This document shows, in pieces, positions 21,686 to 61,997 of a DNA stretch of 64,000 bases. The position numbers and the translations under genes were made by a program. Below the pieces are notes generated by a model, which was given only the letters and a program-made list of their open reading frames with translations, searched no databases and was not told the origin of the DNA. The DNA lies in contig NZ_QJRI01000169.1 in NCBI RefSeq assembly GCF_003254565.1, positions 1-64,000 of the forward strand. The letters run 5' to 3'. Within the stretch, counting starts at the first letter, position 1. Each line of letters opens with the position of its first letter. The DNA comes from Flavobacterium nitrogenifigens (GTDB lineage: Bacteria > Bacteroidota > Bacteroidia > Flavobacteriales > Flavobacteriaceae).

Positions 21686-21787
21686 TTGTCATTTTGACGA
21701 AGGAGAAATCACACACGTAATTCGACAAAGATTGGCGATTTTGTTTATGGAATTTCTAGTGTGATTTCTCCTTCGTCGAAATGACAA
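21686..21787. repeat. Palindromic intergenic element with 29-bp arms
   Basis: The left arm (21686-21714) and right arm (21759-21787) are inverted and match at 28 of 29 positions; the core is GACGAAGGAGAAATCACAC. The 44-nt centre contains a second partial match to the left flank (CAATCTTGTC versus GACAAAGATTG). The transcript could fold into a long hairpin. It resembles the REP-like elements scattered through Flavobacterium genomes. No ORF lies inside. Confidence 0.8.
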
Positions 21788-21946: not shown

Positions 21947-22015
21947 GAAAATCAAAAAACAATTCACAATATTTGCACACGAAAAAAATAATAACCCTTT
22001 AAAAACGAAGAAAAA

Positions 22016-22099
22016 ATGTTTGTACTTACATCGACATCACAAAGCTTCACACCAAACGAATTTGGTGCAGTAATTCTTCGTGGCTTATTTCAATCTTAG
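22016..22099 (+). CDS. 27-codon leader peptide ORF upstream of the RtcB-PrfH operon
   Basis: It runs ATG to TAG, starts after a run of A residues, and begins MFVLTSTSQSF. Its length, the promoter 70 bases upstream and the strong terminator 22 bases after the stop suggest a leader peptide rather than an ordinary gene. Ser and Thr make up about a quarter of the residues, but no single amino acid dominates, so the sensed signal is not evident from composition. The last third of the ORF encodes RNA able to pair with the terminator. An independent micropeptide is the alternative. Confidence 0.55.
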   Translation: MFVLTSTSQSFTPNEFGAVILRGLFQS

Positions 22100-22156
22100 A
22101 AATATATTTTTAGATATATAAAAAAGCCCGAAGACAATAAGTTTCGGGCTTTTTTT
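22042..22156 (+). promoter_or_regulatory. Transcription attenuator with mutually exclusive hairpins
   Basis: Terminator 3:4: AAAAAGCCCGAA (22121-22132) pairs with 22143-22154 and is followed by a T-run. Antiterminator 2:3: TCTTCG-T-GGCTT at 22075-22086, inside the leader ORF, pairs with 22124-22134 as an 11-bp helix with one bulged T. Anti-antiterminator 1:2: 22042-22050 pairs with 22080-22086, enclosing a perfect small hairpin (ACCAAA / TTTGGT with a CGAA loop at 22057-22060). This is the three-state arrangement of leader-peptide attenuators. A ribosome at the leader stop would cover segment 2 and favour termination. Pairings were found by reading; no folding energy was computed. Confidence 0.6.
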
Positions 22157-22263: not shown

Positions 22264-23025
22264 ATGGAAAATTATACGGTAGATGAGTATGCTTTATGTA
22301 CTCGTTTTAAAAGTAAACGAAAAAAGAAAAGATCAGTAAAAGAAGATTTTGAAAAACAATTAATTCAATTAAGAAAGCTTGAAGTTGAACTTTGGAAAAA
22401 GCGTAGAGACTTACCATTAGTTCCTTTAGAAATTCCTTATCAAAAAGGCTGGCAACGCAATTTTAAATTAAGAGATGATATTGCCAGATCAAGTGAAGCG
22501 ACATTTTACAGAGAGTTATTGGAAAAAATAAATACATGGCAGTTTTCTCATGAAAAAGCTTTTAAGAAGAAGAAAAAGAGAAAAAGAAAACATGTGTATG
22601 TTGAAAAACTCCAGACTGTAAAAGAATTTTCAGAGTGGGAATGGAAAAGTTCAAAACTGGAATTGACCGAAAAAGAGAAAACACATTTTTATAAAAGGGA
22701 ACGTTGGTGCAGCAATTGCAAACGATACAAAATTCATTACGTATTTAATGAACCTTGGAGATATGTGCTTCGTGTTAGTCCTTATATGATAACACACACC
22801 AAAATGGTCGATTCAGATTTGGAAAGTGAAATTCAACTTCTTGACAATTATATTGTTAATCATAATCTGAGGAATAAAATAAATAGATTAATACACGGCA
22901 GTTCTCATAAATGGAGTTACTATGAAAATGAAAATCCAAAAGAGATAAGTCCAATTAAAAATAAAAGTCTGCACACTTTGTATCAGCAATACGCAGATGA
23001 AATGATAGAAAATCATGGGAAATAA
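22264..23025 (+). CDS. Unknown highly basic protein, first gene of the RtcB-PrfH operon
   Basis: 253 residues with no family I recognise. Lys/Arg-rich stretches occur at about 14-28 and again around 98-110, where nine of ten residues from K101 are Lys or Arg. A CxxC pair lies in WCSNCKRYKIHY (C149, C152), with His nearby. Aromatic-rich segments follow (PWRYVLR, KWSYY). There is no signal peptide or membrane segment. The charge suggests binding to RNA or ribosomes. The end overlaps rtcB by 11 bases, so translation is probably coupled. A role in recognising damaged RNA or recruiting RtcB is inferred from context only. Confidence 0.8.
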   Translation: MENYTVDEYALCTRFKSKRKKKRSVKEDFEKQLIQLRKLEVELWKKRRDLPLVPLEIPYQKGWQRNFKLRDDIARSSEATFYRELLEKINTWQFSHEKAFKKKKKRKRKHVYVEKLQTVKEFSEWEWKSSKLELTEKEKTHFYKRERWCSNCKRYKIHYVFNEPWRYVLRVSPYMITHTKMVDSDLESEIQLLDNYIVNHNLRNKINRLIHGSSHKWSYYENENPKEISPIKNKSLHTLYQQYADEMIENHGK

Positions 23026-24406
23026 ATTATCTGGAAAAGACCTGATTAAATTAGGTTTTCCAAAGAACAATTCAATAAATATTGCCTTAGGGCAGATAAA
23101 CAGATATAGGAAAAGAGAAAAAAAAGAATCTATTCTAACAGAAGCAAAAGATGTTTTGTTACATCCTGAAAAGTATGAAGGAAATGGAACTTGGGGAAAA
23201 GTTGCCGAAGGTTTGATTAAACCTGTTCAAGTTCGAATGCATCAGCTTAAAAATACTAGGGCACCTTTTAAAATTTTTGGAGAAAATGAAATCGATGAGC
23301 AGGCAAAATTTCAACTGTATGATTCGTTGAAACTGCCAATTTCTGTTGCAGGAGCTCTAATGCCAGATGCACATTCAGGTTATGGACTGCCAATTGGAGG
23401 AGTTTTAGCAACTGACAATGCTGTAATTCCATACGGAGTTGGTGTTGACATTGGATGCCGAATGAGCCTTTCCATTTTTGATTTGCCAGCTTCTCATTTC
23501 AAAGGAAAAGAACATCAATTGGAAGCTATTTTAAAAGACAATACCAAATTCGGAATGTATGAAACGCACGCTTCAAGAGTAGATCATGAAGTATTTTATA
23601 GTAGTGGATTTCAAGATATTCCATTATTGAAAAATCTTTTGCCAAAAGCTTATAAGCAATTAGGAACTTCTGGAGGAGGAAATCATTTTGTAGAATTTGG
23701 AATCGCTAAAATTGAAAACCCTGAGAACGAATGGAAGCTTGAAAAAGGTGAGTATTTCGCGGTTCTTTCGCATAGCGGTTCTCGTGGATTAGGTGCAAAT
23801 ATTGCGAAACATTATACGTATTTGGCAACAAAACAATGTCCGTTACCAAAAAATGTGCAGCATTTAGCGTGGTTAGATCTGAATACGCACGATGGTCAGG
23901 AATATTGGCTGGCAATGAATTTGGCTGGAGAATATGCGAAAGCCTGTCACGACGATATTCATAGACGAATTGCTAAAGCGATTGGAAAAAGAGTGGTAGT
24001 AACGATTGAAAACCATCACAATTTTGCTTGGAAAGAAACCGTGAACGGTCAGGAATGCATTGTACACAGAAAAGGAGCGACGCCAGCGGGAGAAGGACAA
24101 TTAGGAATTATTCCTGGCTCAATGACTGCTCCTGGTTTTATTGTGAAAGGAAAAGGGAATTCTGAAAGTTTGAATTCAGCTTCGCATGGTGCGGGACGCT
24201 TGTTTTCGAGAGCAAAATGCAAAAGCAGTTTTACACAAAGTCAAATCAATAAAGAATTGAAGAAACATGAAGTGACTTTGATTGGAGGAAATATTGATGA
24301 AGCGCCCATGGCATATAAAGACATTGAAAAAGTAATGGCAAACCAAACCGATCTAGTTGAAGTTCTAGGAACTTTTACGCCAAAGATTGTTAGAATGGAT
24401 CGCTAA
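23015..24406 (+). CDS. rtcB: RtcB-family RNA ligase
   Basis: 463 residues. RtcB joins 2',3'-cyclic phosphate or 3'-phosphate RNA ends to 5'-OH ends using GTP and Mn2+. Metal and GMP residues are present: VGVDIGCRM (D145, C148), GGGNHFVEFG (N223, H224), LSHSGSRG (H253), ENHHNFAW (H334 or H335) and the guanylated histidine in SASHGAGRLFSR (H391). About 70 N-terminal residues (GKDLIKLGFPKNNSINIAL) precede the core. It overlaps the basic-protein gene and is 14 bases before prfH. RtcB next to PrfH is a recognised pairing linked to repair of cleaved rRNA. Confidence 0.95.
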   Translation: MGNKLSGKDLIKLGFPKNNSINIALGQINRYRKREKKESILTEAKDVLLHPEKYEGNGTWGKVAEGLIKPVQVRMHQLKNTRAPFKIFGENEIDEQAKFQLYDSLKLPISVAGALMPDAHSGYGLPIGGVLATDNAVIPYGVGVDIGCRMSLSIFDLPASHFKGKEHQLEAILKDNTKFGMYETHASRVDHEVFYSSGFQDIPLLKNLLPKAYKQLGTSGGGNHFVEFGIAKIENPENEWKLEKGEYFAVLSHSGSRGLGANIAKHYTYLATKQCPLPKNVQHLAWLDLNTHDGQEYWLAMNLAGEYAKACHDDIHRRIAKAIGKRVVVTIENHHNFAWKETVNGQECIVHRKGATPAGEGQLGIIPGSMTAPGFIVKGKGNSESLNSASHGAGRLFSRAKCKSSFTQSQINKELKKHEVTLIGGNIDEAPMAYKDIEKVMANQTDLVEVLGTFTPKIVRMDR

Positions 24407-24420
24407 AGAAAGGAAAAGTA

Positions 24421-25110
24421 ATGGAAAAAATAGTTCAGATAACAGCGGGTCGCGGACCTGCAGAATGCACTTGGGTGGTTGCCCAAGTGCTTAAAAAAGT
24501 CTTGGAAGAAGCTGAAGATCAGAATTTGGATGTGGTTTTACTTCAAAGAGAGAAAGGAGAAGAAAATGGAACTATAGAAACCGCATCGATTTCTGTAAAA
24601 GGGAAAAATGCCGATATGTTTGTGAAATCTTGGATAGGAACTATTCAATGGATTGGGCAAAGTCAGTTTAGGAAAATGAACAAACGAAAAAACTGGTTTA
24701 TCGGAATTTTTGAAATTGAACAGCAAAAGAATGCCGTAGTTTCAGAGAATGATATTCAGTATCAAGCTATGAGAAGTTCTGGAGCTGGTGGCCAGCATGT
24801 GAACAAGGTGAGTTCGGCAATTCGGGCAACACATATTCCGACTGGAATTGCAGTTGTGGCAATGGACAGCCGTTCTCAGCATCAAAACAAAAAACTGGCA
24901 ACAGAAAGATTATTAAAAAAAATAGAAGACGAGAAACTAGTTCAGCTTAAAAATCACGTTGGAAAACAATGGGGAAATCAGCTTAATGTAGAACGTGGAA
25001 ATCCAGTGAGAGTTTTTACAGGAAGCGATTTTAAGAAGAACAAAGTAGAGAAAAGCTACAAAGGAACTCGTCAGAAATTGAAAAACGATTTACGAAATGA
25101 AAACAACTGA
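24421..25110 (+). CDS. prfH: Peptide chain release factor homologue PrfH
   Basis: 229 residues. The GGQ peptidyl-hydrolysis motif lies in SSGAGGQHVNK (G123-Q125), followed by IRATHIPTGIAV and SRSQHQNKKLA as in class I release factors. The N-terminus (ITAGRGPAECTWVVAQVL) and the GTIQWIGQS...RKNWFIG stretch are characteristic of PrfH. Factors of this kind lack the usual stop-codon-reading domain and are thought to free peptide from ribosomes with damaged decoding centres. It lies directly after rtcB and overlaps the next gene by 14 bases. Confidence 0.93.
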   Translation: MEKIVQITAGRGPAECTWVVAQVLKKVLEEAEDQNLDVVLLQREKGEENGTIETASISVKGKNADMFVKSWIGTIQWIGQSQFRKMNKRKNWFIGIFEIEQQKNAVVSENDIQYQAMRSSGAGGQHVNKVSSAIRATHIPTGIAVVAMDSRSQHQNKKLATERLLKKIEDEKLVQLKNHVGKQWGNQLNVERGNPVRVFTGSDFKKNKVEKSYKGTRQKLKNDLRNENN

Positions 25111-25630
25111 TAAATACCTTTTTCAAGCCTTGGATAATTATCCGTTTTGGCTTGAAGGAACAATTGAATCTTTAGATTATGCTTTTTCTTATGATGATAA
25201 AAATACAATGGTTTTGTGTTTATACGGAAGAATTCAGGCAGAGCAATTAATGAATTATGAAGAAGCTAAATCTTATTTTCAACAAGCATTATCGATTAAT
25301 ATTCATGCTCTTGAAGTTTATCCGTATTATTTAAAAACGTTGATTTTAAACGAGGATTACGAAGAAGCGCGTAAGCTTATTGATTTTGCTTTAACGGTAA
25401 AAGGAATTAATAAATCAGAGATTTATCTTAAGAAAGCAATTCTGCTAGAAGTACAACATGAATTTAAGGATGCTTTAAAAGAAATTAAGCAGGCAAAATT
25501 ATATTCTATTCAGCATGATTATGATTCGGGAATTAGTGAAGTTGAGAAAAGAATTAAAGATAAAATTGATTTACTGAAAAAGAAGAAAGAGAAAAAATCT
25601 AAGAAAGGTTCTAAAAAGAAATCGAAATGA
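25097..25630 (+). CDS. TPR protein with Lys-rich tail, last gene of the RtcB-PrfH operon
   Basis: 177 residues. Helical repeats are seen: MNYEEAKSYFQQALSINIHALEVYP, LNEDYEEARKLIDFAL and HEFKDALKEIKQAK, consistent with three or four TPR units (about 35-150). The last 20 residues are almost all Lys and Ser. There is no signal peptide. The start overlaps prfH, so the four genes form one transcript ended by the hairpin at 25641. Protein-protein contact with an RNA-binding tail is plausible; the actual role is unknown. Confidence 0.85.
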   Translation: MKTTDKYLFQALDNYPFWLEGTIESLDYAFSYDDKNTMVLCLYGRIQAEQLMNYEEAKSYFQQALSINIHALEVYPYYLKTLILNEDYEEARKLIDFALTVKGINKSEIYLKKAILLEVQHEFKDALKEIKQAKLYSIQHDYDSGISEVEKRIKDKIDLLKKKKEKKSKKGSKKKSK

Positions 25631-25640
25631 TTTTGATAAA

Positions 25641-25668
25641 AAAAAGATGCAATTTGCATCTTTTTTTT
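25641..25668 (+). terminator. Intrinsic terminator of the repair operon
   Basis: GATGCA / TGCATC, flanked by five A on the left and eight T on the right, 11 bases after the TPR gene. Confidence 0.88.
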
Positions 25669-25681
25669 ATTTATTACAATT

Positions 25682-25778
25682 TCCTGCAAGGTTTTCAAAA
25701 CCTTGTAGGTTTGTTATTTAGAATCTAGCATTTTTAACTAAAGTGAAATACCTACAAGGTTTTGAAAACCTTGCAGGA
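25682..25778. repeat. Perfect 29-bp inverted repeat with self-palindromic arms
   Basis: Arms at 25682-25710 and 25750-25778 are exact reverse complements (29 of 29). Each arm itself contains the palindrome AAGGTTTTCAAAACCTT. The 39-nt centre is AT-rich with no ORF. It sits between the convergent TPR and thioesterase genes. Its core (GGTTTT, one base, AAAACC) is shared with the palindromes at 46139 and 52122. Confidence 0.85.
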
Positions 25779-32838: not shown

Positions 32839-33480
32839 TTGAAAGATACTGCCAAACATCAAGGACTTCGCAATCAGTTAGTAACGACTTTAGAACAAAA
32901 AGGAATTACTGATAGAGCGGTTTTGGATGCGATAAAAAAAATCCCGAGACACCTTTTTTTGAATTCAAGTTTTGAAGATTATGCTTATCAAGATAAGGCT
33001 TTTCCTATTGGAGCCGGGCAAACTATTTCGCAGCCATATACAGTTGCTTTTCAGTCACAGTTGTTAGAAGTAAAAAGAGATCACAAAATTCTGGAAATCG
33101 GTACTGGTTCGGGTTATCAGACTGCTGTTTTGTTTATGCTTGGAGCTAAAGTATATACGGTAGAGAGACAAAGTGAGTTGTTTAAAACGACATCTAATTT
33201 ATTTCCGAAATTAAATATTCGTCCAAAACACGTTACTTTTGGAGATGGATATAAAGGATTGCCAAATTTTGCACCGTTTGACAGTATTATAGTGACAGCG
33301 GGAGCGCCTTTTATTCCACAACCATTAATGGCTCAGCTTAAAATAGGAGGAAGACTGGTTATTCCGTTGGGAGAAGATGTTCAGATTATGACTTTATTAA
33401 TTAGGAAAAACGAAACTCAATTTGAAAAACATGAGTTTGGAGAATTTAGATTTGTTCCTCTATTAGAAGATAAAAATTAA
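32839..33480 (+). CDS. pcm: Protein-L-isoaspartate O-methyltransferase
   Basis: 213 residues. It methylates isoaspartyl residues in aged proteins so that they can revert. The SAM site is LEIGTGSGYQTAVL, followed by VYTVERQSEL. IPRHLFLNSSFEDYAYQDKAFPIGAGQTISQPY is the typical N-terminal substrate region, here cited as a span at about 32-64. The start codon is TTG, chosen because no ATG lies nearby in frame and the N-terminal helix matches the family. Confidence 0.95.
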   Translation: MKDTAKHQGLRNQLVTTLEQKGITDRAVLDAIKKIPRHLFLNSSFEDYAYQDKAFPIGAGQTISQPYTVAFQSQLLEVKRDHKILEIGTGSGYQTAVLFMLGAKVYTVERQSELFKTTSNLFPKLNIRPKHVTFGDGYKGLPNFAPFDSIIVTAGAPFIPQPLMAQLKIGGRLVIPLGEDVQIMTLLIRKNETQFEKHEFGEFRFVPLLEDKN

Positions 33481-61710: not shown

Positions 61711-61748
61711 GTTTTAGAAGCATATCAATTCGTTTCCAAAAGCACATT

Positions 61749-61820
61749 TAGTCCCGCTCTCCGTTAAATCTTTTTCCTGCTAAAGGAGCAGGAAAAAGGA
61801 TATCACTTCGATCGGGGCTA
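61749..61820. repeat. Interspersed palindromic element with nested stems
   Basis: The inner stem TTTTTCCTGCT / AGCAGGAAAAA is perfect (11 bp, loop of 5). Outer ends TAGTCCCG and CGGGGCTA pair with one mismatch. The sequence GGATATCACTTCGATCGGGG resembles a dispersed element common in Flavobacterium intergenic DNA. It fills part of the 340-base gap before the lipoprotein gene; the rest is AT-rich without a gene. Confidence 0.75.
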
Positions 61821-61997
61821 GCGAGAAATTTTTTATTTTCATAAGAAATAAAAGTAATTTTTAAATATTTTTTTATAAAATAAATTGTTGATTTATAGTT
61901 GTTTAATAAATAGTTGAAACTTTTTAACATTTTTTATAAGCAACCTTTATAACCAAGGCACATCTTCATAGTAATTAACAATTAATTATTATTTTAT

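Follow-up and report, generated by a model that had tools for sequence, protein, structure and literature searches.

In this work, we analyzed a stretch of 64,000 nucleotides of Flavobacterium nitrogenifigens DNA (assembly GCF_003254565.1, contig NZ_QJRI01000169.1, positions 1 to 64,000 of the forward strand; hereafter the window) carrying a four-gene operon that encodes a basic orphan protein (protein A), the RNA ligase RtcB, release factor H (PrfH) and a tetratricopeptide-repeat (TPR) protein. Our results suggest that the 5' leader of this operon contains a transcription attenuator, dependent on translation, through which damaged ribosomes would switch on the genes, a reading to which we assign a probability of about two in three. 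The attenuator itself is well supported by the sequence; that expression of the operon is set by readthrough of the terminator, with damaged ribosomes as the inducer, is our inference. The leader element (positions 21968-22156) lies 5' of the operon and outside the interval to which a first-pass annotation of the four genes had been confined.

The element consists of a promoter box, region 1, a leader open reading frame (ORF) enclosing a hairpin and region 2, and a terminator formed by regions 3 and 4 (Table 1). Region 2 can pair with region 1 (1:2) or, as an antiterminator, with region 3 (2:3), and regions 3 and 4 form the terminator (3:4), which ends about 107 nucleotides upstream of the gene for protein A. 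A simple terminator scan did not include this terminator among its calls. The leader RNA folded far better than shuffled sequences (z -4.86), and the order of the parts was unchanged in 117 of 121 loci, whether or not A was there and across several chromosomal contexts; the four misses were L046, at a contig end, L072, from Taibaiella, and L137 and L138, with a diverged form. After removal of identical copies, 211 loci gave 141 unique elements, drawn from named and unnamed sets that may share the same or near strains. The box AATATTTG is one base off TAnnTTTG, the Bacteroidota -7 consensus as quoted in PMC9723704. The form [TA]AnnTTTG was present between -75 and -30 of the leader start in 140 of the 141 unique elements, against a mean of 7.8 and a largest value of 16 in base shuffles, and the strict consensus in 36/141. 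The leader stop codon was TAG in 132/141 unique elements, as compared with 109 of 1072 distinct ORFs of at least 200 codons in the loci. The leader peptide is conserved within the genus and wholly different outside it, the pairings being kept. By inspection, the leader peptides hold no codon run for one amino acid, and an attenuator of an amino-acid biosynthesis operon was ruled out on that ground.

Comparison across elements indicates that the antiterminator pairing 2:3 is kept by compensatory change. To be accepted by the element finder, a sequence had to carry CTTCG in the ORF and a motif resembling CGAAG in the terminator, and in the set used for folding CGAAG also had to precede the ORF; the fair test of 1:2 and 2:3 is on the outer bases only. 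Outside the genus, the 2:3 outer bases change from GGCUU/AAGCC to GGUUU/AAACC, GACUU/AAGUC, GAUUA/AAAUC or UGCAU/AUGCC, not all of them complete. The 21 distinct outer-base combinations formed 86 of 105 pairs, a value reached in none of 20000 permutations (permuted mean 78.7); on 25 haplotypes, among which some outer-base combinations are counted more than once, the result was 103/125 pairs (p 5e-5). On alignment A4, 95.2% of the cells of the 2:3 helix were paired, versus 60.4 and 57.6% when the helix was slid by one column, and the six double-change cells were reached in 0 of 500 shuffles. The terminator 3:4 had 90.2% of its cells paired on the same alignment.

Partition functions were then computed for 136 unique elements with assumed ribosome footprints, and the values that follow are mean pair probabilities. 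Before region 3 is made, 1:2 stood at 0.95. With a ribosome at the start, hiding the first eight codons and the preceding bases, 2:3 reached 0.97 and exceeded 0.5 in 136/136 elements. With the ribosome at codon 10 the values were 0.71 for 1:2 and 0.25 for 2:3, and with the ribosome at the stop codon 2:3 fell to 0.00. The models predict antitermination chiefly when a ribosome is held at the very start of the leader.

In the mechanism that we propose, transcription would start about 35 nucleotides upstream of the 27-codon ORF, as judged from the promoter box, and would stop by default at the terminator 3:4. On a leader without a ribosome, region 1 would capture region 2 once this is made and the terminator would form; a ribosome moving at normal speed would unwind 1:2 and cover region 2 while ending at UAG, with the same outcome. 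A ribosome parked on about the first three codons would hide region 1 and leave region 2 free to capture region 3, by which the terminator would be blocked and the repair genes made. Ribosomes that initiate but decode poorly, their 16S decoding centre being cleaved, would collect at or near the first codons, and the switch would thus respond to the very damage that RtcB and PrfH mend. In the kinetics reported in PMC2615495, initiation by colicin-E3-cleaved ribosomes stands at about 75%, and these ribosomes stop within a few codons; any one round of elongation is impaired at most about twofold, and synthesis is zero after about eight codons. Such halting would fit an early stall that extends past codons 1-3, and its link to the leader is our own. 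An extended form of the proposal, which is tentative and which we hold to be somewhat less probable than its opposite, would make the leader a sensor of decoding-dead ribosomes, that is, of ribosomes that initiate and become stuck at the first codons, with UAG as a second input (for instance slow release by RF1 or feedback through PrfH), and would see leader control as recurrent in Pseudomonas, in Flavobacteriales and possibly, with another short ORF, on the Taibaiella side of the Bacteroidota.

Several observations weigh against control by such a damage-responsive attenuator. Regarding the pairings, the pairing of the lower halves in 1:2 and 2:3 follows from the motifs that the finder demanded, 28 of 500 shuffles of A4 reach the numbers of double-change pairs and of pair types found for 2:3, the outer-base test for 1:2 is weak (p 0.025 on 10 haplotypes), and covariation in the terminator 3:4 was not above that of shuffles on A4, perhaps from misalignment. 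Besides, the elements are related, so that the permutation p values overstate the case, and in L264, on our reading, the leader ORF and region 2 are in different frames. As for the mechanism, 1:2 and 2:3 were nearly equal (0.47 vs 0.51) with region 3 present and no ribosome, and the off state would then depend on the order of folding. The kinetics of PMC2615495 would spread E3-cleaved ribosomes over codons 1-8, which is wider than the predicted on position, and early stalling of ribosomes may have other causes. Finally, the near-invariant UAG is left unaccounted for; release there may be slow and detain the ribosome on region 2, or PrfH may exert feedback.

The specificity of the element was assessed with a covariance model, R1. 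As R1 was built from rtcB/prfH loci, their recovery was expected and the test lay in the absence of strong matches elsewhere; region 1 was misplaced in the MAFFT alignment, and R1 therefore encodes neither 1:2 nor 2:3. We searched a genus sample of 299 genomes, from which the counts given below for A, PrfH and the TPR protein also come. R1 matched 104/299 genomes at E<=0.01 and 95/299 at E<=1e-11, the latter including all 92 genomes with PrfH, and a match lay 1.66-3.52 kb upstream on the same strand for 93/93 prfH genes. Three strong matches came without an intact prfH operon, all with rtcB downstream: A and rtcB without prfH in genome G200, rtcB alone in G206, and a broken-up operon in the fragmented genome G296. 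No strong match away from rtcB was found in the 299 genus genomes. Among 196 Flavobacteriales genomes, searched with stricter filters under which weak matches are lost, 40 had a match at E<=1e-3, and 38 of these 40 matches precede an rtcB-prfH operon. The match in G659 stands before a TPR gene, with rtcB 3 kb on and no prfH, and that in G177 (E 8e-4) looks like chance. In G254 (E 5.2e-6), a decayed leader precedes a TPR gene, with neither rtcB nor prfH in the 10 kb around. The linkage of the leader to the rtcB-prfH operon is, on the evidence of these searches, near-exclusive. Furthermore, a pattern joining regions 2 and 3 occurred once in the 5.4 Mb genome. Weak R1 matches in G177, in G423 and near position 33400 of the window were by eye ordinary terminators. 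An Rfam search of the window gave Flavo-1 alone above the gathering score, far from the operon (61746-61823, minus strand), and low-score matches to enterobacterial leaders were treated as chance.

Attenuators of the trp type combine a leader ORF with alternative 1:2, 2:3 and 3:4 pairings, termination being the default. The Flavobacteriales leader shares the ORF, the three alternative pairings and the terminator default; it differs by the lack of a single-amino-acid codon run and by its on state, which would be a ribosome at the first codons. Its closest precedent is the PA5471.1 leader of Pseudomonas aeruginosa. In the account given by PMC12057347, this leader peptide and downstream terminators precede armZ (RtcB-like) and PA5470 (prfH), ribosome inhibitors, including aminoglycosides and chloramphenicol, are proposed to relieve the transcription attenuation, and the gene pair is treated as part of efflux regulation. 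Compared by description only, the two share a leader peptide and a terminator before an rtcB-like/prfH pair, whereas the Flavobacteriales element belongs to another phylum, pairs in its own way, ends its ORF with UAG and is followed by different accessory genes. Within the genus, PMC9723704 infers leader-peptide attenuation in structured 5' regions of Flavobacterium psychrophilum; attenuation by a leader peptide is common to both cases, whereas those regions concern amino-acid biosynthesis operons and rtcB is absent from the main text. The main texts of PMC6514570, PMC1586002 and PMC9223846, which deal with the RFH-RtcB (RtcB2-PrfH) rRNA-repair operon, mention no leader or attenuator, and no leader on rtcB-prfH in Bacteroidota was found in the main texts of the open-licence PMC literature. 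The Flavobacteriales attenuator would thus be a variant, in another phylum and with its pairings laid out, of a kind known from Pseudomonas, and one that we did not find in print.

A different short ORF, its stop codon lying at a small GC stem, was seen by eye upstream of rtcB or A in three loci outside Flavobacteriales (L195, L072 and L196). Its peptide reads MTExFYISSLFxAA in L195 and L072 and MKHLTSISPLSLIA in L196, and its DNA pattern was matched exactly once in G462 and once in G934; G559 gave no match. It may be a second, unrelated leader for the rtcB-prfH operon.

Table 1 Predicted parts of the leader element and members of the rtcB-prfH operon in the window.
Feature	Position	Strand	Basis
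Promoter -7-like box AATATTTG, about 47 nt upstream of the leader start codon	21968-21975	+	Motif counts
Region 1 (ACGAAG), immediately 5' of the leader start codon; would pair with region 2	22005-22010	+	In place in 117/121 loci; RNA fold
Leader ORF MFVLTSTSQSFTPNEFGAVILRGLFQS, 27 codons, stop UAG	22016-22099	+	ORF reading; stop counts
Predicted hairpin within the leader ORF	22050-22067	+	Fold; 4 pairs, all with double changes in alignment A4
Region 2 CUUCGUGGCUU, within the leader ORF; would pair with region 1 or region 3	22076-22086	+	Pairing; covariation
Region 3 AAGCCCGAAG, predicted 5' arm of the terminator and antiterminator partner of region 2	22124-22133	+	Pairing; covariation
Region 4, predicted 3' arm of the intrinsic terminator and U-run	22142-22156	+	Sequence; fold
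Gene A, basic orphan protein, 253 aa, optional member	22264-23025	+	ORF list; profile searches
rtcB, RNA ligase, 463 aa	23015-24406	+	PF01139 match
prfH, release factor H, 229 aa, GGQ at 123-125	24421-25110	+	TIGR03072 match
TPR protein with Lys-rich tail, 177 aa	25097-25630	+	TPR_2 match; neighbourhood
Hairpin and T-run 3' of the TPR gene, where the operon probably ends	25645-25668	+	Direct sequence reading

The four genes downstream of the leader had been delimited in the first-pass annotation, and the coordinates, the 11-base overlap of A with rtcB, the 14-base gap between rtcB and prfH and the 14-base overlap of prfH with the TPR gene are all as it gave them. Its identification of RtcB and PrfH also held, both being clear members of their families by profile search (PF01139, E 7.8e-85; TIGR03072, 231.2 bits over a cut-off of 166.65). 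RtcB of the window contains GVDIGCRM, GNHFVEF, LSHSGSRG, HHNFAW and SHGAGR, which we take to be the catalytic motifs, and the closest solved chains to PrfH (9mor, 9mq4 and 7sa4) are titled peptide chain release factor H. The TPR assignment stood as well, with a TPR_2 score of 25 bits, slightly below the cut-off of 27; the protein has an acidic core (pI 4.84) and the Lys-rich tail that had been noted, and its best match among PDB sequences was only at E 0.15. Flavobacterium species are the nearest named relatives of the four-gene operon. The hairpin and T-run at its 3' end were not among the calls of the simple terminator scan. The operon lies between long inverted repeats (21690-21787 and 25683-25777) that resemble, by eye, dispersed palindromic repeats; a second rtcB lies at another site of the source genome.

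Protein A was described from the outset as very basic and of no known family, and so it remained: its pI is 9.67, and no match was obtained in Pfam or NCBIfam at E<=1, nor among PDB sequences with its profile at E<=10. Its AlphaFold2 model (mean predicted local distance difference test score, pLDDT, 80.7; predicted template modelling score 0.55) gave a best E of 0.33 with Foldseek against the PDB and a best Z of 5.1 over 53 residues with VIA-align, no family standing out. The WCSNC pair pointed out earlier is present at residues 148-152 but is not kept throughout, the Taibaiella homologue having YPMSHSKC and L035 WCSNF. A was detected in 36/299 genus genomes and in 3 of 149 genomes sampled across the family, two of these three detections being weak; one of the 41 named A loci is from Taibaiella, outside the family. 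In 35 of the 36 A-positive genus genomes, A adjoins rtcB (G208, G322, G422, G385 and G296 among the genomes in which it does), and the exception, a 42-residue match in G164 (E 8.6e-4) without operon genes in the surrounding 11 kb, looks like chance. A same-strand rtcB was in the flank of the 73 A-match loci first retrieved (the weak A match in L003 was not recovered on re-search). Two A copies precede rtcB in L185, separated by 754 bases in which the leader element lies, and in L035 (5968-8142) A and RtcB share a single uninterrupted frame of 724 codons, which is either a natural fusion or a sequencing error.

PrfH was found in 92/299 genus genomes, with 93 prfH genes in all, and 33/299 genomes have both A and PrfH, a co-occurrence far beyond chance (hypergeometric p 3.9e-16, relatedness being ignored). 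A was not found in 59 of the 92 PrfH genomes and is therefore optional. The TPR gene is a steadier partner: 85 of 98 matches lie on the same strand within 2 kb of prfH, and in only 8 PrfH genomes was it not found. The other 13 matches comprise that in the broken-up operon of G296, six that adjoin rtcB without prfH, four that adjoin neither, that after the decayed leader of G254, and one in G355. RtcB, PrfH and the TPR protein form the common core, and the operon appears to be a ribosome-repair cassette composed of the RtcB ligase, the PrfH release factor, a TPR partner and the optional basic helper A. In L209-L214, distant TPR relatives (31-37% identical) stand directly after rtcB without prfH, which suggests that rtcB and a TPR gene can form a pair of their own, independently of PrfH.

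The rtcB-prfH slot is variable. It holds a zinc-ribbon protein of 200-204 residues (Z) in 24 of the 41 named A loci and a nucleotidyltransferase-like protein (N) in some other loci, and the window has neither gene there. Z resembles zinc finger protein 512 weakly (Pfam E 0.022; PDB 2ctd E 0.0071), and its model (pLDDT 72) had a best Foldseek E of 0.13; N matched NTP_transf_5 at E 0.0044 with 17.1 bits, under the cut-off of 31.2. In L138 (genome G122), a second, different rtcB and two nucleotidyltransferase-like genes, recognized by eye, lie immediately upstream of a degenerate A and of rtcB-N-prfH-TPR. These gene kinds have been described. Section 2.4 of PMC6514570 (2019) places beside RFH-RtcB genes for a TPR protein and a Pol-beta nucleotidyltransferase, together with those for a zinc-ribbon protein whose C-terminal helix is charged and for an orphan that has charged helices as well. 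In the texts consulted, no test of the function of the outer proteins was seen. The orphan may be A, which fits its description; this equation is ours. RtcB directly before PrfH and on the same strand, as in the window, and the kinds of accessory genes are shared with the known RFH-RtcB operon.

This bears on the idea, put forward with the first-pass annotation, that the four proteins form one damage-response complex for recognition, ligation, release and scaffolding in which the two outer proteins are undescribed. The genes do look like one unit, being co-directional and tightly packed with conserved outer neighbours, and A and the TPR protein are indeed close neighbours of rtcB and prfH; the single A-RtcB frame of L035, possibly a sequencing artefact, would also suit a complex. 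A fixed membership of four is doubtful, because A was not found in the 59 PrfH genomes mentioned above and the rtcB-prfH slot varies, and A is in addition split in L135, L147 and L151; as for novelty, the claim does not stand given section 2.4 of PMC6514570. On balance, we judge this complex unlikely, at most an outside contender. The patchy presence of A, its split copies and its second copy upstream in L185 would also be expected of a toxin or a mobile passenger gene riding the operon, a reading that we regard as scarcely credible, as A had no match in plasmids, viral contigs, PADLOC or PHROGs and otherwise keeps a constant place before rtcB, in most cases with an overlap or a gap of a few bases.

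Two other readings concern the leader. The 27-codon ORF could be a small-protein gene in its own right that is closed by a terminator, with the operon promoter lying further down. An ORF and a terminator alone would suit a tiny gene, a peptide conserved within the genus likewise, and in some loci the first gene of the operon lies several hundred bases past the leader, beyond the reach of our promoter scan, which covered the first 110 nucleotides after the terminator. The rarity of a box within that scan (9/141 elements), the complete change of the peptide outside the genus with the pairings kept, and the covariation of region 2, internal to the ORF, with an arm of the terminator, make this reading very improbable. 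The remaining alternative retains the whole anatomy of the attenuator and takes it for a general sensor of elongation, responsive to antibiotics or starvation, so that any early stall would induce the repair genes. It draws on the reported response of PA5471.1 to aminoglycosides and chloramphenicol (PMC12057347), on the lack of a codon run naming one signal in the leader, and on the halting of E3-cleaved ribosomes over about eight codons, beyond the first three. Such a sensor would be wasteful, since the enzymes encoded counter rRNA cleavage in E. coli, according to PMC9223846, and we consider it improbable, roughly on a par with the four-protein complex. An attenuator induced by damaged ribosomes remains the reading that we favor.

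The novelty of the proteins has largely been claimed in print already, and it is the attenuator that we regard as the finding worth following. The covariance model points to the repair operons themselves, and the armZ leader of Pseudomonas, so far discussed under efflux regulation in PMC12057347, gains a new context. The question addressed here is how cells detect broken ribosomes early enough for repair. If our proposal is true, the damaged ribosome would report itself through the position at which it halts on a 27-codon leader, a device both compact and testable.

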